A stretch of DNA of 64,000 nt from Dioscorea cayenensis subsp. rotundata (Eukaryota > Streptophyta > Magnoliopsida > Dioscoreales > Dioscoreaceae): NCBI RefSeq assembly GCF_009730915.1, contig NC_052495.1:682001-746000 (forward strand), in the 5' to 3' direction. Positions 1 through 58,137 of the stretch are shown in pieces (the stretch's first letter is position 1; every line of letters starts with the position of its first letter). The notes beneath the pieces are model-generated. The model was not told the origin of the DNA and ran no database searches. It saw nothing but the letters and a program-made list of their open reading frames with translations. A program made the translations under genes and the position numbers.

Positions 1-37
1 TCGACATCGGGAGATTATTCGAAGGACACCGTTTGCG

Positions 38-716
38 ATGTTCATCGAGTGGAAGCTATATACCAAGAGAGGGCCCTTCTTGATTCTCTTTTTGCAAAGG
101 TACGATGGCCGCACCAATAAATTCAGGATCGGGGAAAACCTGCTGAGTTTCAGGCCTCAGGATGTGGCTCTCGTTCTTGGTCTGCGTTGCGATGGCGGCG
201 CGATCGTGTTCGAAGAAGAAGACCCAGCTCGCGTTCGAAGGGCGGTATTTATCAAAAACCCTACAAGAGACACGAGACTCCATCAAGACCATTACAGTGC
301 AACTTGTTCGACGGAGGGAGAAGAAGATAATTTTGTCAAACTCCCGATGGTGTACCTCATGGGTGCGAGTCCCTCTTCCCAAATATATCATGCTCGGTTC
401 GAGTCGGATCGCTGATTACGTCGATGATCTACCGACCCATGAGGCGATACGCGTGGGCGCAGGGCGACGCACAAGTGGCTTATGGAGGATATTCCCCAGC
501 GTAGCCCGAGTGCAAGATAGATGCTGCCGGGAAGAAGACCAACAGTGGTACATTAAGGGGTTGCTCGGTCGCTTAACGTCCCGGTTTTACTGAGTGACCG
601 GAGCAGGGGAAGAAAGTCCGCTTTGGCAAGGTCCCAAGGATCTTTGTGCTACGGTGAAAGTACTACGGAAGCAAGCTGACTGAGAAACCGACTTGTCATC
701 GCTCGATGGGAAAGAG
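38..716 (+). pseudogene. Plant-mobile-domain / DUF1985-like exon of the ULP1 gene (degenerate)
   Basis: The first frame reads a segment with LLSFRPQDVALVLGLRCDG, the typical 'phase through, then valxlGL' signature of plant mobile domain and DUF1985-like regions that sit upstream of ULP1 peptidases in plant transposons. Further on, another frame encodes HKWLMEDIPQ (about 471-500), which fits the 'YAWA...L.EDI' part of the same domain, so at least one frameshift lies between. A plausible splice donor (GAG/GTAATA) occurs near 716, and the following intron is the phased repeat at 736-906. No initiation codon is assigned with confidence because the window may begin inside the gene. Confidence 0.55.
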
Positions 717-735
717 GTAATAAATCATGGACAAT

Positions 736-906
736 GTTTAACATAAGTCTTTAATGTTTAAACATATTATTTAGTGTTTAACTTTAGTATTTACCGTTTA
801 AAAACTTATTCATACTTGGTTTAAATATTTTTGTTCTCCGTTTAAATATATTCTATAACGTTTAAATATATAACCAACATGTTTAAATATAGTTTTTACA
901 TTTTAA
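736..906 (+). repeat. Phased GTTTAA array 1 (intron of ULP1-type gene)
   Basis: GTTTAA or GTTTAAA occurs at 736, 756, 776, 796, 819, 840, 860 and 881, with a decayed copy near 901. The spacing is 20-21 bp apart from one 23-bp step. Between anchors the sequence is AT-rich and poorly conserved. The array fills the interval between a donor near 716 and an acceptor near 950. Confidence 0.85.
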
Positions 907-949
907 AATGAATGATTTCGCTGACATTGTTTGGTTTCCATATGTTAGT

Positions 950-2230
950 TTCCCGAGATGGGTTCCGCTGAACGTCAAGAAGAAATATTTATTGGGGGCC
1001 AACCGACGGATGGATGCTATCGCTCCCGAACCACTTGCTCAAGGCGGGATGAGAGGCGACCTCATCGTGCGCTGCTCGACGCAGCTTCTCCTACTTCCGA
1101 CCCACCACGCCAGCGCAATCCTCGGCCGAGAAGCCTCCCCACCCCGGCAGATTGCAACAACCCCCTACCACGACAACGACAGTCCCCGATTGTGGCGCAC
1201 CGACCATGGCGGCCCTCCGACTGGCAAAGCGTCAACCCGGCGACATTAGGCGAAGATGTCACCGCAACTCTTATGCAGGGCGTGCGGATATTGATAACCG
1301 AAGTTTCCTCGACTTGTCGCTCGTGTTGAGGCACTGGAGGGACGTTCACAACCGACTGCGCCATCCCTCCAAAGAACTGAAGCACCCGGGACGAACGAGG
1401 CGTATGAATTTGACGACGATGACATCATCGGGAAGGTCATTCTAAGACGGCCACATTCGAAGAGACTTGCGAAAAAGAGGAGAACAATACTGCCTCTGTC
1501 TCCACCGCAGGGTCGACGATGAAACAATAGCAACACCATCGGGTCGGGTCGATGTCGTATCGAGACTGCTGCGTTGATGACATAGCCATGACGGTGGAGG
1601 ACATCGTCGATGATGTGGCTATCACGCGGTTGAGAAGGTCGTCAACTCTCTCTTTAATGAATCGATGGACCCGGTGGGAACCGGCTGTCTGAGATCATGG
1701 CATCAAAGATGGACACAATCCTTGCGGATCAAGAACAAGCTAAGGGTGTGTCTCCCAATGATCGTCAGTCGTCGCGACACGGTTGAGAAGATCGTTGAAT
1801 CTGCTGTCGTGGCCGTGGCCGTGCCGACAAGATCACGCAACGAGCAGACACAATCCCACCACAAATACAACCATGTAAGGATGTGTTCGCGGTTGATGTT
1901 GTCGCCGTTGTCCCCGCGATCGAGCCGTGCACAATCCCACAACAAGAACAACCATGTAAGGATGTGTCTGCATTGATGCTTTCGTCGCTGATCGTCCTCA
2001 CATCGAAGGAAGATGCTGGCTGGTCTCGAACACCGCTGACGGTGCAACTGCAGAGTGCCCCATGAAGACCCCGACCGAAAGCAACGAGAGAGATGATCAA
2101 GGCCAATCAACAATGGGACCGGATACTTTCGAAAAGCTTTTATTCCCAAAAATGGGTCTGGCTCTGTCTCGTCTTTAACAAATATGAGCGGGGAGTTGAT
2201 GAGGATCTTCCTCAATCGCTCATGGATCGG
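950..2230 (+). pseudogene. Middle region of the ULP1-type transposon gene, no clear domain
   Basis: This GC-rich block lies between an acceptor-like site near 950 and a strong donor GTAAGT at 2231. All frames are interrupted and no domain was recognised. Low-complexity acidic/basic linkers of this kind are usual between the mobile domain and the ULP1 peptidase in such elements. A short internal repeat is visible: a segment near 1857-1882 recurs near 1930-1956 (shared words CACAATCCCAC, ACAACCATGTAAGGATGTG). It is read as part of the element because it lies between two better-defined pieces and has the same composition. Confidence 0.4.
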
Positions 2231-2257
2231 GTAAGTCTTAAGTTTTTTTATGATAGT

Positions 2258-2386
2258 GTTTAACGATTTTATAATGGTGTTTAATGTCTTTATGTTATCA
2301 TTTAATTTTTCTACTTAACGTTTAATTATATATAATATCATTTAAACATTTACAATATGGTCTTATTATATCCATTATCGCTTTAA
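2258..2386 (+). repeat. Phased GTTTAA array 2 (intron of ULP1-type gene)
   Basis: Anchors GTTTAA, or one-base variants such as ATTTAA and GCTTTAA, lie at 2258, 2279, 2300, 2320, 2340, 2360 and 2380, again every 20-21 bp. A strong GTAAGT donor at 2231 precedes the array, so it fills an intron. Confidence 0.8.
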
Positions 2387-2390
2387 CCTC

Positions 2391-3150
2391 GAAGACCGTC
2401 GTGTGGAAGAATGACGTTGTCGAGACCACACGGGACAAATTAGTACATGCCGCTTGAGGGGAAGAAGATGGTCACGAGATGATGTGATGGGACGCTTTCG
2501 ATGCATTATACAAAAGTCACTGAGCAAATGACCATATCCTTACAAGAAGCGCCTCCCATCACCGGATCAGCTTGCGCTTTTTATGTCAAAGCGAGACGCA
2601 CACATGAAACAATTATGGCTATGGTCGGGGATGTCATGCGCAACACGCATCGTAAGTTCAAATTGACATCCTCCCGATAATCATGAATGGCCACTTCCAT
2701 GTCGTCGTCCTCGACAATGATAAACAAGAATACATTATTCTTCATGTCCGGGGTACGATAAAGACGCGTTGCACATGGTAAGATCTTCAATTATGTCTGA
2801 TTAATAGTGTTTGGTATTTAATCGGTATTCTAATCTCAACTTGCATATCTCGACAACGGAATCTATTCGACAACTGTGTCAATATGCAGTTCGGTGAGTC
2901 GGCGACGGCAAAGTACCCACTCATGCACGACACGGAAACCCCACGCCAGAAACAAGGAAGCGTCGATTGCGCCGTCTACGTCATGCGGTTTATCAAGCAG
3001 TTACTTTGGGGTGAGACGTTACGGCTACCGCAGACAGACGTTCCTTACCTCAGATTAAGATATGTTACCGCGATACTTTCAGGAGGCGGGCATGGCGTCA
3101 CGACAAAGGGGGTCGTCACAAGCGGGTTAAGATTTGTGATCGAAGAACAT
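2391..3150 (+). pseudogene. ULP1-like (peptidase family C48) domain, degenerate
   Basis: Two exon-like pieces carry the catalytic landmarks of a ULP1/SENP cysteine peptidase, the class that cleaves SUMO. The first (about 2680-2779) reads GHFHVVVLDND, where the central histidine region corresponds to the HW(H/x)L motif of the family. The second (about 2866-3110) reads QGSVDCAVYVMRFI, matching the Q-x-x-x-D-C-G active-site loop; the usual glycine after cysteine is alanine. A GTAAG donor near 2780 separates the pieces. The Asp expected after the histidine strand is not obvious (LHV appears instead of a YDS-type motif), so activity is doubtful. It converges with the transposase on the other strand. 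Confidence 0.65.
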
Positions 3151-3310
3151 GTCTTGTATATCTCAATGTCAATTTTGTTTTCGAATGTAAACTCGGACAT
3201 TCAATTCATTGTTTTCGTTTCTGAATAACATGACTTGTATATCTCAATGTAAATTTTGTTTGTTTTTCAATTGTAAAGGCGGGTTAAATTCCATTCGGTC
3301 TCATTTCATT

Positions 3311-3480
3311 GTTTAATTTACGTTGTAATTGTGTACATTTCCGTTTAATTGTTTAAATATATCATATATCGTTTAAACATCAGTTGAAATATTTGAAATT
3401 ACAGATCAGTATCCATTTTAAAAATAACAATGTCTACGTTTAAATACATTCAATTCAGTTGTAAAGAGTAAGAGTTTAAA
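3311..3480 (+). repeat. Phased GTTTAA array 3 (between ULP1 gene and transposase)
   Basis: Anchors at 3311, 3331 (GTGTACAT), 3351, 3371 and 3391 (ATTTGAAAT) are 20 bp apart, with looser copies at 3438 and 3474. The array lies in the spacer between the converging ULP1-type gene and transposase, in 3' flanks rather than in an obvious intron. Confidence 0.7.
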
Positions 3481-4095
3481 TATGGAAAGTTGCCCATCAA
3501 TACACAATGTTTCCCTATCATCGTCGGCTTATTTACAATGCCTAGTCGGCTGACAGCTTCATGCGAAGATCGTCGATCGTGATCGAATCCATGGCGGCAC
3601 GTGCAATGTAACTTCGCGGACATCAAACGCTGCAACTCGATCCTCTTTTCGCCTAGGCCGCCCAGTCGCCTTCGCCATCAAAGCGGTCGCAAACGAAGCT
3701 CACGATTTCCGTCGAAGGCTCGTCATCATCGGGTATGGGAATATAGCTTCCTTATCGCCAGCTTTGTAATTGTCGACGGTGAAGTACCCGCTAATAAATC
3801 GATGTACGTTGGTGTCTATCTCGCATTATTGCGAGCAAGCGTGTTCTGCAAGGGATACCATAAACTTGCCACCTTCGACATGAACAAGTTCCGATGGCGA
3901 GATCTGACGAGTTGTCTGACCGGTCGATCACTTCGTAACGATCATCGACACAATGACCAACACGAAGATTTCGGTTGTCCTCAACAATGATCTCTACCTT
4001 CGAATGTACGTCTGGGCATAAGTAGGTCTCCCATTTGTTCGCTTGCTCACGCCGGTTACATAACATGCGCATCAACTTGAACCTTGCAAATAAGG

Positions 4096-4223
4096 TTAAA
4101 CAAAGACAGTGATGGTTAAATAATTCGTAAACATGTTTAAACATTATTGTAAATATTTAAACGAAAGTATTAATATTTAAAGACAGACAAGTGTAATTAA
4201 ACAAATATTGAGAATGTTTAAAG
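4096..4223 (-). repeat. Phased GTTTAA array 4 (intron of MULE transposase)
   Basis: Here the anchor is TTAAAC or TTAAAG on the plus strand, so GTTTAA reads on the minus strand, as the transposase does. Motif ends fall at 4101, 4121, 4142, 4162, 4182, 4202 and 4223. The array is nearly the whole of a 158-bp intron (about 4089-4246) with minus-strand donor GTTTAC and acceptor TTTGCAAG. Confidence 0.85.
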
Positions 4224-5462
4224 GGTAACACTAAATGTTAAGTGTAAACCAACAGATAATTCGACCAATGTGCCATATCCGATTTATTAATCAACCAGTG
4301 ATGAGCTTCGGGTGATGTGGCCTGCAGTTCATTCACGGTATCATCGAAATCTTTAGCCGTGGATGCCCACGCAATGCGGAAGCATATAGACCAGCACTCC
4401 TCCCTCAATGCCTTCCCAAGTCTGACATTGGCTTTCATAAAATTGGCCTCCAAATGTCGAAGACAGTATGCATGTGGCGAAGAAGGGAAGACTCTCGCAA
4501 TTGCGCTCACAAGGCCCTTGGACCTGTCCTACACGAAAGTAATTATCTCATAATAATCTCCATCCTCGTATAAAGCATCGCCTAAGTTAGATATGAACCA
4601 AGTCCAATTGGCATCGGTCTCGTTGTCGACTATACCGAAGGCGACGTGAAAAAAACCATTGTTTCCATCTTTCCCTGTGGCACCCGATGAGTGTACCTCG
4701 ATATTTTCCGAGGAGGTGGGTACCATCGAGAAAGCAATGACTCCCGTAAGCCCTCTTGAATCCCACGATACACGCTACGAAAGAAAAGAATGCACGCTTT
4801 AAAACGATCACCGCTCTCTTTCCACGATCGCATACGCTGCCGGGATTTGTCTCGACCCACCTTATCCACATACCAAAGCAAACAATCGTGAGTGGAGATG
4901 TCACTGCCAGTCGAGGACCACTGGCATGCTCTTTTTCCCAACCAAGCTCGCTTGTATGGTATGTGGACACCATGTTCCCCGCAACATGTCCTTCCGAATG
5001 TCGATGGCCTTGATCGAGGGACGGTCCCCTGAGCTTCGAATCACTCGTCGCTAACCCATTTTTTGGACGCTTTCGGATGCGACGTCGAACCTATGCCACC
5101 ACCGCAAGTGTGTGAAGGGTTGATTGTCTTGATTCTAAAAGTATTTTTGTTATACTCTTTTGATGCATGAAGGCGCGAATGACAACCATCGGGCAGCATT
5201 CCACGATCGCCCGATGTTTTTCGTTCTTTATGAATTTGAAGTCAAAAATTCCTTTTGATTGCATGATTTCAAGTACATCCTCGAAAATGTTCGACACCGT
5301 CAAAAGCGTTGTCCAATATCCAACGACAAAGACTTTCGGGAATGATCCGACGAGGAAGGAAGACATCCCACACCGTCGAGGGTCGCCCATGGGGATGAAC
5401 TGGAGCACTCACGGAATCCGAATTCCACGCCAACACTTGATCAAATGAAAAAGATCAATATG

Positions 5463-5593
5463 TTAAAGCGGAGAATATAATGTTTAAGTGATAATCACAA
5501 TATTTAAACGTCAAATTAAAAAAACTTAAGCGGTTAACTAATAACGTAAAGCGACTAGTACAAGATGTTAACTAGTGACGGACATATTTAAAC
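5463..5593 (-). repeat. Phased GTTTAA array 5 (intron of MULE transposase)
   Basis: Minus-strand GTTTAA-type motifs end at 5468, 5488, 5509, 5530, 5551, 5572 and 5593, a 20-21 bp period with almost no drift. The array lies in an intron bounded on the minus strand by the donor GTAAGT near 5643 and an acceptor near 5445. Confidence 0.85.
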
Positions 5594-6015
5594 ACTAATG
5601 ACCCCAGACAACTGGAATAATTAAAAGAGAAGGAACTTACAACGAGTAAAAACTCGTTTTCATTAGAGATTCGACAATGGCACATTTTCGTCCTCGACGA
5701 CAAGATCAACTACAAAGACATTTGAAGATGGAGTGCACGTGACATATCCAGCTGGAAGTCAACATCGTTTTCTATTGGGCAAACCGTTTTATATCCATCC
5801 GGTGTGATGAACTTAACCTCGACAAGAGAAACTTCGAGACCCCATCAGCTCACATATCTCAGCTAACACCAACTCCCAAGAAGTCTGAGCCGTGAACATT
5901 AGCACTCTTCCCTCCCCGTTGAATCTAGCAATACCACAAAAAAACTCTCCATACTATATCGGGCCGAAAACCAAATCGTACTAAACAAAAATGAAATGAA
6001 GAACAAAAATAAGCC

Positions 6016-6053
6016 GAAGAAGAAGAAGAAGAAGAAGAAGAAGAAGAAGAAGA
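6016..6053. repeat. (GAA)n microsatellite
   Basis: About twelve GAA units in the spacer upstream (minus-strand sense) of the transposase. Simple-sequence repeat only. Confidence 0.9.
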
Positions 6054-6263
6054 TGTAAACAACAAACAGCAGTCATATAGGCAAACAAAAAAAGTGCATA
6101 TATATATATCACTGTCGCGATGAAGACCAAAAAGTGCATAGAGGTTAGACTAGGCGTGATGTGATTGGGCGTGTTTTTTTCCCTCCATCGGAAGGGCGAA
6201 AAAGGAAAAAAATATGCCATCGTCGCGATGAAGGCGTATTATCATCGCTCGACATGAGTATAT

Positions 6264-6620
6264 GTTTAAAGCGTCGAGCTTTTTATGTTTAAAGCAGGAT
6301 ACATATAGTGTTTAACATAACGATTACAGGTTTAAATAAAGTCCATATCGTGTAAATAATACGTAAAACGTTTAAATATAGTGACTTAACTGCTTTTAAA
6401 AATATATGTTATTGTTTAAATTGAATGCTTTTCACTGACATCAGCGTTGAAGATGGGTACTTCACGGGTCATCTGTTTAAACATCTTTACGTATTTTTCT
6501 TAAACACCGTTGTCATTGATTAAAAGAGTAACTTGAGTATTGTTTAACTTTTTTTCTATTGTTTACTAATGACTTTCTTTTGTTTCCCACATTGTTTTTT
6601 TACTAGGTCTCGTTTAAATT
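6264..6620 (+). repeat. Phased GTTTAA array 6
   Basis: GTTTAA-type motifs at 6264, 6287, 6310, 6330, 6350, 6370, 6392 and 6414 continue more loosely at 6475, 6542, 6561 and 6612. Spacing is 20-23 bp. The motif reads on the plus strand. It is not clear which gene this array belongs to; it adjoins the second transposase fragment. Confidence 0.65.
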
Positions 6621-6634
6621 TCAGAAGTTCACAT

Positions 6635-6830
6635 TCAAATAAAACATTCGTTTACAACATTTACAAAACATTTACAACATTTACAACATTTACAACGTCC
6701 TCTCGGACTTTGGACACTCACGACTCGACCCTCGTATAACGAAACAAGTGTTTGTACATTCGAATGCTCACAGTGGTTGCATAACATGCGCATCAACTTG
6801 AACCCTGCATGACGTACTAACATTAAAAAA
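6635..6830 (-). pseudogene. Second MULE transposase C-terminal fragment
   Basis: The minus strand encodes FKLMRMLCNHCEHSNVQT, which closely matches FKLMRMLCNRREQANKW of the transposase at 4050-4110. The nucleotide sequence around 6775-6812 is likewise nearly the same as 4060-4097 (shared run: CATAACATGCGCATCAACTT). It is therefore a second copy or partial duplicate of the same element, followed by GTTTAA-rich sequence. The remainder probably lies in the N gap at 7138. Just upstream there is a short repeat of the words TTTACAACA (6655-6697). Confidence 0.6.
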
Positions 6831-7137
6831 AGGTTAAACAAACACATTCGTGAAAAGCGACTATTAATCAATGTGTCATGGTCGGGACTTAAGCGAAGAT
6901 CTCGATAGTTAAACACGAGACGTAATAGTTGTACACTAACGTAATGTTTTTTTAAAGCGGTAACAAAAAGTCTCAGTGATAAATATCAACCCCAGTCTTA
7001 AAGGATGTTTCCCGACCTCCTCCTCTAGAGAATCCTCCATGATCACGCTGATACGTGAAAACTTTCTTTTCTTACCCAAGTCTAAAAGCTCGCTTAATTG
7101 CTTGCCCGTCATCCACATCGGAGAATCCTCCGCATTC

Positions 7138-8137
7138 NNNNNNNNNNNNNNNNNNNNNNNNNNNNNNNNNNNNNNNNNNNNNNNNNNNNNNNNNNNNNNN
7201 NNNNNNNNNNNNNNNNNNNNNNNNNNNNNNNNNNNNNNNNNNNNNNNNNNNNNNNNNNNNNNNNNNNNNNNNNNNNNNNNNNNNNNNNNNNNNNNNNNNN
7301 NNNNNNNNNNNNNNNNNNNNNNNNNNNNNNNNNNNNNNNNNNNNNNNNNNNNNNNNNNNNNNNNNNNNNNNNNNNNNNNNNNNNNNNNNNNNNNNNNNNN
7401 NNNNNNNNNNNNNNNNNNNNNNNNNNNNNNNNNNNNNNNNNNNNNNNNNNNNNNNNNNNNNNNNNNNNNNNNNNNNNNNNNNNNNNNNNNNNNNNNNNNN
7501 NNNNNNNNNNNNNNNNNNNNNNNNNNNNNNNNNNNNNNNNNNNNNNNNNNNNNNNNNNNNNNNNNNNNNNNNNNNNNNNNNNNNNNNNNNNNNNNNNNNN
7601 NNNNNNNNNNNNNNNNNNNNNNNNNNNNNNNNNNNNNNNNNNNNNNNNNNNNNNNNNNNNNNNNNNNNNNNNNNNNNNNNNNNNNNNNNNNNNNNNNNNN
7701 NNNNNNNNNNNNNNNNNNNNNNNNNNNNNNNNNNNNNNNNNNNNNNNNNNNNNNNNNNNNNNNNNNNNNNNNNNNNNNNNNNNNNNNNNNNNNNNNNNNN
7801 NNNNNNNNNNNNNNNNNNNNNNNNNNNNNNNNNNNNNNNNNNNNNNNNNNNNNNNNNNNNNNNNNNNNNNNNNNNNNNNNNNNNNNNNNNNNNNNNNNNN
7901 NNNNNNNNNNNNNNNNNNNNNNNNNNNNNNNNNNNNNNNNNNNNNNNNNNNNNNNNNNNNNNNNNNNNNNNNNNNNNNNNNNNNNNNNNNNNNNNNNNNN
8001 NNNNNNNNNNNNNNNNNNNNNNNNNNNNNNNNNNNNNNNNNNNNNNNNNNNNNNNNNNNNNNNNNNNNNNNNNNNNNNNNNNNNNNNNNNNNNNNNNNNN
8101 NNNNNNNNNNNNNNNNNNNNNNNNNNNNNNNNNNNNN
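7138..8137. other. Assembly gap (1000 N)
   Basis: Exactly 1000 N, a conventional placeholder length, so the true size is unknown. It follows the MULE cluster directly, and collapse of repeats is the likely reason. Open frames that cross it are meaningless. Confidence 0.99.
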
Positions 8138-37000: not shown

Positions 37001-40000
37001 AATTGAACAAGCACTATATTATAATCTTCTGTGTGACTAAAAAGACACTTTGCTAAAAACACTTTGCTGGACAAGACCTCCGAGGAGCTTGGCAAAGCAT
37101 TTGGCAGATGAAGTGGTTGAAGGGATTTCAGCTTCAAACTGTCCCTTCTTGTTTGTCAGTGTTGTTTGTCGATAAGGACTTCGTATTACTGCTGTTAATT
37201 GTTACTTTTACTCCTGCATCCATGCAAACATAGCCTGGTAAGCATAATTTACAAAAGTAAAAATGAGTGAGATATTGAGAGAGTGAGAATAGGAAAGCTC
37301 ATAATGAGGAGAGCAGTCAAGGCAGGTAACTCATCCCCCTTCAACACATTGCAAGTTCAGAGCTGAGCATTAGTGATGAACAATAGGAAGAGGAGAACAC
37401 TAACTGCTAGATAAAGAAAGCCATAACAAGTGCTTGAGTGTGAGAGTTCATTGTGTGGCACAATTCAAATATAAACAAGGAGCTCGCTAGTCAATCAATG
37501 AAAGTTCAATAGAGAATGAAGATTACCAGTAGTAAGTATTTTTCTGAGGCCCTGGATTGCATGATCTACCTTTCCCCAGCTTCCTCAAGTCTGAAATCCT
37601 TGCAAATGAGTCAAAGATTTTTTCCGGTGAGGTAGTACATTTGTAAAAAATATGGCCCCTGACACTTAAAGGGAAGTAACATTATTACACTGCAACTACC
37701 ACATCCTTGTGGTCATGTGATTTTATGATCCAAGTGTGGTGAAAGCAATGTGCTATGAATGTACTATGTGAGTTTCACTTCTGATATTAAAGTACAGTTC
37801 AACAAAATTTTTACGAGAGTTAGTTAGTATTTAGAAGAATTAGAAAGGACAGGGTACCTTGCATCCTTCCTGCTTTAAGGCTTAATGGCCATATGCAACG
37901 GATATTGTTATAAAATGCTCACCATGCCTTTCCACTCTTCTGCTTAAATTTGGACATGAAGAGAGCTCCGCCATAAGAATTTATACTCTTTTTTGCTATT
38001 GATTGTAGTATACATCCTGACAATCGCTGGGATGATGTTCATTCCTGAAAAGTGGAACAAAATAAGGGCAATTTCTTAATCCACCAAGCAAACAAAAAAA
38101 TTCACTGTCCTGGTAACCAGAAAGCAAAATTTGCAGCAACTTCACAATCAGGTCTACAGAATAGTTATTTCAACTGACAGATAAATACAGATGGTTGAAT
38201 CCTCCTGTTGCAGTTTGTATGATAAATAGAGGTTTAATTATTATGACACAACATTGCTGCAGGTTACAGGAGGGACAACTGACTTCATTTACATAAATTT
38301 AAGAAAGTGCAAACCTCCAATTGATGAACTCATCGTCATTCAACCCCAAAACAGATCATTTCCTTTGGCCTCACCTCAACCAGAAGTCACCAAAGATGAA
38401 ATGGTGGGCACCTAATAGAACCAATAAATTTGTCAAGATGATACTCAAAAAAACTTGCAGACTTGTACAGAAAGACATTTGTTCCCTCATCTTATTCCTT
38501 CCTGGGCATGCCCCAGGAAACACCAAAAATGATTTTAATCAAACAGAGAACTTTGAAAACAAAGCCGATCGTCAAAACAATCTAACTATATGGTGAACAC
38601 AGAAAATGGATTGCAAACTGAAATTCACCAACAGTTCTTCAAAATTAATACAAGGATTATCCAAAGGAGAAAACTTGAGGTACCTGAAAAAGACTCATCA
38701 GTAACCATATCAAATATCGCTTTCTTCAGGTTCCATTAACTGCAGTCCAAGCAGTGCAATGGACGAAAAAATTGGCTCAGGGAGAAAAATCATCTAAGCA
38801 ATGCTCCAAATCATTAAGGATTTGATCCAAATACATCAAAGTTTCGATCTCTAAGTGAAATGTATGGGATAAAAAAGGAAAAAAAATAATAAGAACAAGA
38901 CACCAATTTGAACGCCTCATATAAACAAGACAAGAATTTGGACAGCCAAAGACCCACAATAGACACCATGTTAATTCCTAGTAGACTTATATTTAAAAGA
39001 GATAAGACATTTGCAAGCATGCTGTGCAGTCACCCACCGCCTCCATTTAGCACGGTTAACTTGGGTTTTAAAGGTAAACATGCAAGATCATATTGCCTTC
39101 TCTCATTTTCCAAACTGTTTCCAACTGACTAAGAAGAATATAATTTTCAGGCCATTCACACAAAAATATGAACCTGTCACATAAACAAGAGACATCTTCT
39201 ATCACCCATCATATCTATTTCACATGTGCATTAGAGTTGTACTAGCATTTTAAAACAGGGCACTGCATCAAAATGTTAGAACAATTAGGGATAGAGACGT
39301 AGCTAAACAGGTTATAAAACAACTAAAGTGTGTGCAAACATGACTTATGTGGCTGCAAAGCTAAGAAGGAAAGGGACATAGATGCTAGCTATAGTCAACT
39401 TCATCGACATTATTTCTAAGAATGAATTCCAACCCTAAATTGGCATGAGGTCAGCATTTGTATAATTGATCCAACCTACTCGAAAAAGCGTATAGGGGCA
39501 TATAACAGTATTTTACAAATATCAGATCCATTTTCATCAATTGCACATAAATTCAAATTAATAAATGATGCGGACAAACAATGTGACACATGAGGATCGA
39601 GGCATGACGTAAGCATTAAATTAAATTTGAAAATTTTAAATGATTATAGGAAACCAACCAATGAATGCTCCTTTCCGGAAAAGCAATGAAGCGCATTCTT
39701 CCCTAAAAGTTATTTAAGTCATAAACAATTCACTATATACTGAAACGAAAGGTTCCTGGATTGTCTTTTACGAGCTGGTCATAACGATTGCGTTACAAGG
39801 ATAGTGATAGGATGCCACATCAACAAAATCAAAACATTTTTGGTGCTTGACAAAAAGAACTTACAGATGCCAGATTGTCTTTTACGAGCTGGTCATAACG
39901 ATCGCATTACAAGGATAGTGATAGGATGCCACATCAACAAAATCAAAACATTTTTGGTGCTTGACAAAAAGAACTTAAAGGATGCCACATCAACAAAATC

Positions 40001-57108: not shown

Positions 57109-57799
57109 GAACATGGTTTGGTTCATGGTTGGGAGGAAATAATAGCGTGGGAGGATTGCATTAGGTGTGGTTGGTTTGGATGTTTCATTAGAGCCAAATT
57201 AAGTGGCAATACGGTATATACCAATCATTTAATTGATGAGTTATTTAACTAGCAATAAATAATAGTACAAGTACCAATATATGGTCTATGGCTATGAATT
57301 ATGGAGTTGGAAGTCACTGTGGCCACCTTGCTTGCAGTGCATGTCTCTTCCTCACATGCCATATACAAACACAAATGTGCATTATATTTGGTTAGAAAAA
57401 TTATCACAACAATAAAACAAAATGGTACTACTTGATATGGAAAATGTAAAAGGATTATTAATCCACCATTAATTTTTTTGGACCGTAATTAATGTGTGGT
57501 TGACCCACCATTGGGGTTGTTTGTACTTTATCCTTTGAGAATTTTAGTGCAAAATTAATAACTCTTTTTTCTTTCTTTTTTTCTTTCTTTTTCAAACTAA
57601 TTTGTAAATGTGAAGAAGTGCAGTCTATCAACTTCACGAAAGATCATTAAAAACAAAGGAAAAGACTTTGTGAAGACTGAACAAACTAAATTAAAAAATT
57701 AAAATAAAATTTTATGTGGATGAGAAACTTCATATGTAGATTTTTTAACCCAAAATTTTTTTATTAACTGTCAAAAAATATATTAAGTACAAATACAAT

Positions 57800-58137
57800 G
57801 ATGTTCATCATATCTAAAATATATTAAGTGCAAATACAATAATGGTGAGTAAGCAAAATAGAAAAAAAAAAAACATAATTAGTAAAAATGATATTTGACT
57901 CAACGAATTAGGTATTATCGACAAATAAATTAATTAAAAGGAGAGAATAAATAGAAAGGTAAATTTACAAAGATGTTGATCATATCTAAAATATATTAAG
58001 TACAAATACAATGATGGTGAGTAAGCAAAATAGAAACAAAACATAACTAGTAAAAATGGCATGTGACTCAACGATTAAAGTATTATCAACAAATAAATTA
58101 ATCAAAAGGAGAGAATAAGTGGAAAGATAAATTTTGT
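57800..58137. repeat. 172-bp tandem duplication
   Basis: Unit 1 starts at 57800 (GATGTTCATCATATCTAAAA) and unit 2 at 57972 (GATGTTGATCATATCTAAAA). They match over nearly their whole length apart from poly-A slippage and scattered substitutions. A further partial copy (TATTAAGTACAAATACAAT) lies just before, at 57781-57799. Confidence 0.9.

Follow-up and report, generated by a model that had tools for sequence, protein, structure and literature searches.

The window analysed here, 64,000 nucleotides of Dioscorea cayenensis subsp. rotundata (contig NC_052495.1, positions 682,001 to 746,000), begins with a decayed MULE at positions 1–7137, in which a minus-strand MULE/SWIM transposase gene is convergent with an Ulp1/C48 gene (Table 1). 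A gap of Ns starts at 7138, and on its left side the element runs beyond the window. Introns were inferred by eye from GT..AG borders and reading frames; the frames contain frameshifts and stops in both genes of this copy, which counts against the explanation that we favour below.

Table 1. Genes and motif arrays of the yam element, in window positions
Feature	Position	Strand	Basis
Second gene, N-terminal exon, broken, DUF1985-like/PMD-like	2..716	+	domain matches below cut-off, reading frames
Array 1, inferred intron, 8 GTTTAA units, steps 20, 20, 20, 23, 21, 20, 21	717..892	+	
Direct repeat of about 81 bp, two copies, middle of second gene, repeated peptide	1849..1990	+	self-blastn, reading frame
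Array 2, inferred intron, 5 units, steps 21, 21, 20, 20	2231..2391	+	
Ulp1/C48 peptidase-like exons, broken	2483..3130	+	C48 profile match on read-through
Array 3, spacer separating the two convergent genes, 6 unevenly spaced sites	3300..3490	+	
Transposase C-terminal exon, SWIM zinc finger	3490..4088	-	SWIM match in 3794–4156
Array 4, inferred transposase intron, 7 units, steps 20, 21, 20, 20, 20, 21, motif mostly on minus strand	4089..4243	-	
Transposase central exons, MULE domain, broken	4244..5440	-	MULE match on read-through
Array 5, inferred transposase intron, 7 sites, steps 20, 20, 21, 21, 21, 21, 4 degenerate	5441..5639	-	
Transposase N-terminal coding fragments	5640..5940	-	reading frames alone
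Array 6, 12 sites, first eight 20–24 bp apart	6250..6620	+	absent from the sequence-only reading
51-bp copy of a transposase exon end (vs 4038–4088, 86%), then decayed array 7, 4 sites	6759..6965	-	

An earlier reading of the letters alone (the sequence-only reading) had named the element a MULE with an Ulp1 gene, and profile searches with read-through translations bear this out. MULE matched the transposase read-through at 62.1 bits (E 7.3e-17, cut-off 27.6) and C48 matched that of the second gene at 24.1 bits (E 3.6e-5, cut-off 20.7); on single unjoined stretches, MULE stayed below its cut-off, as did C48 on one stretch alone (18.3 bits). SWIM exceeded its cut-off both within the stretch 3794–4156 (26.4 bits, E 5e-6) and on the transposase read-through (24.7 bits, cut-off 19.6), while the Ulp1-like exons aligned weakly with sentrin-specific protease 1 (E 0.09). 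At the N-terminus of the second gene, the read-through query, which extends into the exon that follows array 1, gave weak matches to DUF1985 (E 0.0022, 18.4 bits, cut-off 35.1) and PMD (E 0.015, 14.9 bits, cut-off 34.9), both below cut-off; the unjoined stretch 2–412 alone matched no family at E up to 1, and DUF287 appeared neither in the six read-through queries nor in ten unjoined stretches. The two copies of the direct repeat in the middle of this gene are 82% identical over 62 bp.

The inferred introns and spacers carry a recurring motif, approximately YGTTTAAAYAT, about every 20–21 bp. The GTTTAA positions listed in the sequence-only reading agree with the sequence, and the periodicity stands out against several backgrounds. 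In the five arrays named there, together with 6250–6960, 18 pairs of TTTAA lie 19–22 bp apart, whereas 500 within-region dinucleotide shuffles average 0.38 such pairs and none reached 18; the same comparison gave an excess at 39–43 and 60–64 bp. When all 6-mers at 1–7137 were ranked by pairs 19–22 bp apart, with no motif preset, GTTTAA was the top non-simple one, with its best lags near 20, 40 and 60. Its 19 pairs compare with three to eight for the best 6-mer in each of nine other 7.1-kb chunks, which overlap slightly and were taken from the rest of the window. With array 1 left out, phase coherence peaked at a period of 20.75 (3.28; 3.25 at 20.5) and did not exceed 2.86 in 1000 random placings, although these were scanned on a coarser period grid than the real data. 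Among the 42 neighbouring steps in all, 34 measure 16–26 bp, and 28 of these are 20–21 bp. The near-constant spacing claimed earlier thus holds for four of the five named arrays but not for array 3 (3311–3480), where the steps are 32, 8, 20, 67 and 36. In array 5, an exact sense-strand GTTTAA stands at two of the seven proposed anchors and a third anchor overlaps a copy on the opposite strand, whereas the other four are degenerate and were partly chosen by their spacing. A further array, beyond these five, lies at about 6264–6617. Since at least 120 stretches in the viral_contigs collection hold three GTTTAA spaced 19–22 bp apart, such short runs are not rare in a large collection, and the weight lies on the longer arrays at several places of one element.

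The motif is also crowded into non-coding DNA. All 42 occurrences of GTTTAA on both strands of 1–7137 fall within the 1996 bp called non-coding, whose borders were set after the arrays had been seen, and none in the other 5141 bp. Shuffles predict 4.6 for the non-coding part, and none of 300 reached 42. For the coding part they predict 1.9, but 38 of 300 exon shuffles likewise contained none, so that the absence from exons is by itself without significance. A matrix trained on array 1 only found 22 more sites scoring at least 10 at 1–7137, every one of them non-coding, at a density of 12.1 per kb of non-coding stretch; over the 53.9 kb past the gap the density is 0.33 per kb. In orientation, 21 of these 22 follow their array, plus in arrays 2, 3 and 6 and minus in arrays 4, 5 and 7, the opposite one lying at 2814. 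Exact motifs occur on both strands in six of the seven arrays; one orientation prevails within an array, but not exclusively.

We read the motif, its periodicity, its crowding into non-coding DNA, its prevailing orientation within each array and the accompanying gene pair as the marks of binding-site arrays for a sequence-specific protein. This protein is probably the anti-silencing product of the element's own second gene, as VANC is in VANDAL MULEs, and the arrays are best read as anti-silencing targets with a motif unlike the two known from Arabidopsis. Against this reading weigh, besides the broken frames, the sub-cut-off DUF1985 match with PMD close behind it, the lack of arrays of either Arabidopsis motif, linkers at chance identity where VANDAL21 sites often belong to tandem repeats, and the exceptions to a single orientation. 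The sequence-only reading had pointed out that a protein could touch every copy on one face of the DNA; this idea is part of the reading favoured here, but the transposase, which it had offered as a candidate, is a less likely binder than an element-encoded anti-silencing protein of the VANC type. For transposase-binding sites of the subterminal type, spread into the interior, speaks that the element encodes a MULE transposase and that arrays flank this gene and lie within it. Known MULE transposase sites, however, lie in the termini, whereas the sites here fill internal introns of both genes and are not limited to the ends, the left one of which is outside the window. We consider this account improbable.

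We also give little credence to the arrays being the functionless remains of an old minisatellite, whose units arose by slippage and in which the core alone is still visible. Tandem Repeats Finder does see a 20-bp unit repeated 8.4 times at 734–907, with 64% matches, and it reports local repeats at 2247–2293 (80%), 3304–3356 (77%) and 6905–6945 (81%); moreover, the units at 2258 and 2279 share 13 of 18 linker bases. Neutral decay should nevertheless affect core and linker equally, and identity between units is 0.85–0.88 in the core but 0.31 in the linkers, where composition predicts 0.309, a contrast that is partly by construction because the units were anchored on their cores. Pairs from different arrays set a 95% point of linker likeness, which 4 of the 42 adjacent pairs attain, and the core recurs at seven separate places. 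Nor do we favour the related suggestion that the introns originated as a tandem repeat, given that the same arrays occupy spacers outside introns, that the linkers are at chance and that no shared splice-site sequence is apparent by eye.

Two further explanations fare worse. Plant introns are AT-rich and carry U/A-rich elements on the sense strand, and exact motifs do lie mostly on this strand in the four inferred intron arrays (8/9, 3/4, 4/6 and 2/3); an effect of splicing or composition is nonetheless very unlikely, as the motif crowds into spacers too (arrays 3 and 6) and dinucleotide shuffles account for so few of its copies. A nucleosome-positioning or curved-DNA signal, suggested by a period near two helical turns, is hardly credible, because a TpA step sits at the centre of the core (TTTAAA), A-tracts interrupted by TpA give no strong phased bending, and a fixed 6-bp core starting with G is more specific than positioning signals require.

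Returning to anti-silencing targets, a mechanism can be sketched. The second-gene protein, with its DUF1985/PMD-like N-terminus, repeated middle and Ulp1 domain, would bind YGTTTAAAYAT, and the spacing of two helical turns would place many copies of it on one face of the DNA, allowing dense or cooperative binding. Binding may then strip DNA methylation across the element and thereby permit transcription and movement. The sites would be housed in introns and spacers because coding sequence is too constrained to carry them. If this is true, the motif would add to the two targets given in the available part of Hosaka 2017, and Sasaki 2022 may hold more. The arrays would also be a case in which helical spacing was retained while the DNA between the sites turned over, and it would become testable whether spacing, beyond motif and density, directs element-encoded anti-silencing proteins. 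Finally, phased motif arrays in the introns of Ulp1-MULEs would offer a simple marker for such systems in plant genomes. A bolder version strikes us as rather unlikely: that a VANC-like system evolved in a lineage other than that of Arabidopsis, with a DNA-binding part of the PMD rather than the DUF1985 type, drawing its specificity from sites two helical turns apart and coating one face of the introns and spacers throughout the element.

Further copies were sought in two ways. Joined queries in tblastn gave, apart from their source stretches, a sole match in the window (6758–6889, E 0.096). In two collections that cover prokaryotes and viruses, a pattern search with a 96-aa transposase stretch gave 117 matches (genome_contigs) and 8 matches (viral_contigs), none of which was confirmed. 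Array 7 was considered as proof of an array kept in a relative's intron and rejected, since a by-eye fit to the upstream exon yields a much shorter intron, with part of the array outside it. Among described elements, the Ulp1-bearing MULEs (Kaonashi/KIU of Arabidopsis, and those of melon, rice and grapevine) share the transposase and the Ulp1-domain gene, and KIU is described as recognizing motifs in non-coding parts, much as we propose here; in the portions of the source at hand, these MULEs are described without mention of GTTTAA arrays (PMC13317346). The same portions of this review state that Ulp1 occurs in some Vandal VANC genes, that these recognize motifs in the non-coding DNA of elements of their own kind, and that eudicots show strong conservation of the domain (PMC13317346). 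MULE-Solanaceae_1, with SWIM, an unknown ORF and an antisense PMD, shares the SWIM transposase and an antisense gene of PMD-like appearance; the accessible part of its description contains no motif arrays, and the PMD match of the yam element is below cut-off (PMC6446971). MULE-encoded PMD proteins show that a domain of similar look is borne by transposons, and their use in anti-silencing has been speculated upon (Ikeda 2017, PMC5418596). In the excerpted text, however, these are PMD-transposase fusions in grasses and Amborella, whereas the yam element has a separate gene, in which PMD is the weaker match, behind DUF1985.

The closest parallels are VANDAL MULEs, which have a comparable gene pair and whose VANC proteins bind arrays of short motifs and remove silencing (Hosaka 2017, PMC5735166). 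As far as the available sections of that paper go, the ChIP signal of VANC21 covers introns, intergenic and terminal regions, VANDAL21 motifs occur at high density in the same orientation, often within recognizable tandem repeats, the variable regions of VANC proteins carry tandem peptide repeats, the VANC6 motif differs from that of VANC21, and the Arabidopsis second genes of this type encode DUF1985 and DUF287. Like VANDAL21/Hiun and VANDAL6, the yam element is thus a MULE with a second gene, dense short motifs of one prevailing orientation in its non-coding parts and peptide repeats in the second protein. Unlike them, its second gene has an Ulp1 domain and a weakly detected DUF1985, and its motif is YGTTTAAAYAT instead of YAGTATTAY or AGTTGTCC/AGTTGTAC. 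The VANC21 motif occurs twice in the window and not in the element; that of VANC6 occurs six times in the window, where 2.5 are expected (a count matched by 4 of 100 shuffles), and once in the element as AGTTGTAC at 6927–6934, and neither forms arrays there. Missing or degenerate terminal inverted repeats and a 9-bp target duplication are further VANDAL-type traits; here, with the left end outside the window and the N gap beyond, a search for inverted repeats at 5601–7137 gave none that settles a terminus. The step of the yam arrays is near-fixed at 20–21 bp, with linkers at chance identity, in contrast to the recognizable tandem repeats around many VANDAL21 sites. Our literature search on helical periodicity in transposon silencing brought up no VANC paper among the entries listed. 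The abstract of Sasaki 2022 reportedly places these systems in eudicots and has VANC specificity set by sequence, density and helical periodicity; if it indeed says so, phasing is what would be expected of the yam element.

The first part of the window (1-7137), which ends where 1 kb of N begins, holds a decayed Mutator-like element and perhaps also a fragment of a second one. Its transposase, on the minus strand, matches Pfam MULE (E 7.3e-17) and SWIM in a read-through of the frames, and the SWIM stretch stays above the cut-off even when searched alone. A second gene lies convergent with it on the plus strand; its read-through gives DUF1985 (18.4 bits) and PMD (14.9 bits) in the N-terminal part, both below cut-offs, and Ulp1 peptidase C48 in the C-terminal part (24.1 bits vs a cut-off of 20.7). 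Searched unjoined, an N-terminal stretch of this gene has no Pfam match at E up to 1, and a single Ulp1 stretch reaches 18.3 bits against the same C48 cut-off. The Ulp1 part aligns weakly with sentrin-specific protease 1 (E 0.09) over the segments GHFHVVVLD and QKQGSVDC, within which the C48 catalytic residues presumably lie. Both genes carry frameshifts and stops. A direct repeat of about 81 bp occupies the middle of the second gene (1849-1990), and a 39-bp direct repeat downstream of the Ulp1 exons (3142-3261), its copies 81 bp apart, has nearly the same step. At 6759-6809 lies a 51-bp copy (86%) of the transposase exon end 4038-4088, hinting at a second, truncated element that runs into the N gap.

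Arrays of GTTTAA-type motifs in and around the two genes
Array	Position	Exact motifs, plus/minus	Remark
1	717-892	8/1	inferred intron
2	2231-2391	3/1	inferred intron
3	3300-3490	6/1	spacer between the convergent genes; irregular
4	4089-4243	2/4	inferred intron
5	5441-5639	1/2	inferred intron
6	about 6250-6620	9/2	spacer; absent from the sequence-only reading
7	6810-6965	0/2	after the 51-bp exon copy; weak, poor

A recount returned the GTTTAA positions listed in the sequence-only reading, which had also described a near-constant spacing of 20-21 bp. The 49 units that we anchored by hand give 42 neighbouring steps, 34 of which measure 16-26 bp (mean 20.8), and 28 of those 34 are 20 or 21 bp. The spacing stands in general, but not in array 3; in array 5, exact sense-strand anchors number 2 of 7 and four degenerate ones were picked partly by spacing, so that the regularity measured there is overstated. 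Regularity in array 6 is confined to the first eight sites, at 20-24 bp. One orientation prevails in each array, judged by exact motifs per strand, and in all four inferred intron arrays it is that of the sense strand; since the core TTTAAA is palindromic, some minority-strand hits are majority-strand sites counted again on the opposite strand. Other tandem repeats in the window include the short TTTACAACA, adjoining array 6 at 6651-6696, and two-copy repeats of 114 bp (39759-39987, 96% match) and 168 bp (57794-58134, 87% match).

This periodicity exceeds chance. TTTAA pairs at 19-22 bp number 18, against a mean of 0.38 in within-region dinucleotide shuffles, 0 of 500 of which are as high. Because the shuffled regions had been chosen for containing the motif, an unguided 6-mer test was also run: among all non-simple 6-mers in 1-7137, GTTTAA ranks first with 16 pairs at 19-22 bp, followed by TTTAAA (9), which overlaps it. 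Its best lags lie near 20, 40 and 60 bp, where the sequence-only reading had expected peaks at 20-21 bp and its multiples. In nine other chunks of the window, no 6-mer exceeds 8 pairs at any lag tried.

The motif also keeps to particular places. A matrix built solely from array 1 (threshold, score 10 or more) finds 22 sites elsewhere in 1-7137, every one of them in a stretch called non-coding; beyond the gap it finds 18 in 53.9 kb. Orientation agrees in 21 of the 22 with plus in arrays 2, 3 and 6 and minus in arrays 4, 5 and 7, the exception (2814) lying within another intron inferred for the second gene. Exact GTTTAA on both strands falls 42 times out of 42 in the 1996 bp called non-coding, the borders of which were drawn from frames and GT..AG with the arrays already known, and 0 times in the remaining 5141 bp; dinucleotide shuffles predict 4.6 and 1.9. 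The non-coding excess is reached in 0 of 300 shuffles; the absence from exons is not significant alone, as 38 of 300 shuffles of that part also give 0.

The motif approximates YGTTTAAAYAT. Compared with one another, the units show an identity of 0.85-0.88 in the core, partly by construction as cores served as anchors, and 0.40-0.50 in the near flanks; in the linkers, free of that effect, it is 0.31, vs 0.309 expected from their composition. Linkers of adjacent units show no clear excess of similarity over those of different arrays (6.6 vs 6.3 of 18, P 0.13), and some single pairs are plain copies (e.g. 2258/2279). A few copied pairs aside, only the anchor is kept and the bases between vary, as had been claimed from the sequence; spacing and core have therefore been kept while most other sequence turned over.

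VANDAL elements of Arabidopsis encode VANC proteins. Hosaka 2017 (PMC5735166) places the VANC21 ChIP signal in introns, intergenic and terminal regions, and gives AGTTGTCC and AGTTGTAC as the motifs associated with VANC6. Sasaki 2023 (PMC10398659) has RdDM targeting the same non-coding parts of VANDAL elements, a 2026 review (PMC13317346) describes a Ulp1 domain, strongly conserved in eudicots, in some Vandal VANC genes, whose products recognise non-coding motifs of their own kind, and a MULE survey (PMC6446971) records groups of plant MULEs that combine a SWIM transposase with a PMD gene in antisense. The one decayed copy sampled here resembles the VANDAL/VANC system in anatomy, and can be placed in the broader class of MULEs that bear Ulp1; it likely belongs to the VANDAL/VANC systems, short of proof partly because its DUF1985 match is below cut-off. 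Given a gene pair of this kind and a matching array placement, the arrays are most likely target sites of the element's own VANC-like protein, which would bind them and thereby demethylate and mobilise the element.

Non-coding arrays of short motifs are already known in such elements. In the literature consulted, we met neither this motif nor so regular a step of two turns combined with linkers whose identity is at chance level, and no paper on GTTTAA arrays appears, by title or abstract start, among the matches listed for queries other than the motif itself. Helical periodicity is reportedly named by Sasaki in 2022 as part of VANC specificity. Compared with VANDAL/VANC, the element has the same kind of gene pair and the same array placement, but another motif; where the variable parts of VANC contain peptide repeats (PMC5735166), its second gene has the direct repeat of about 81 bp in its middle.
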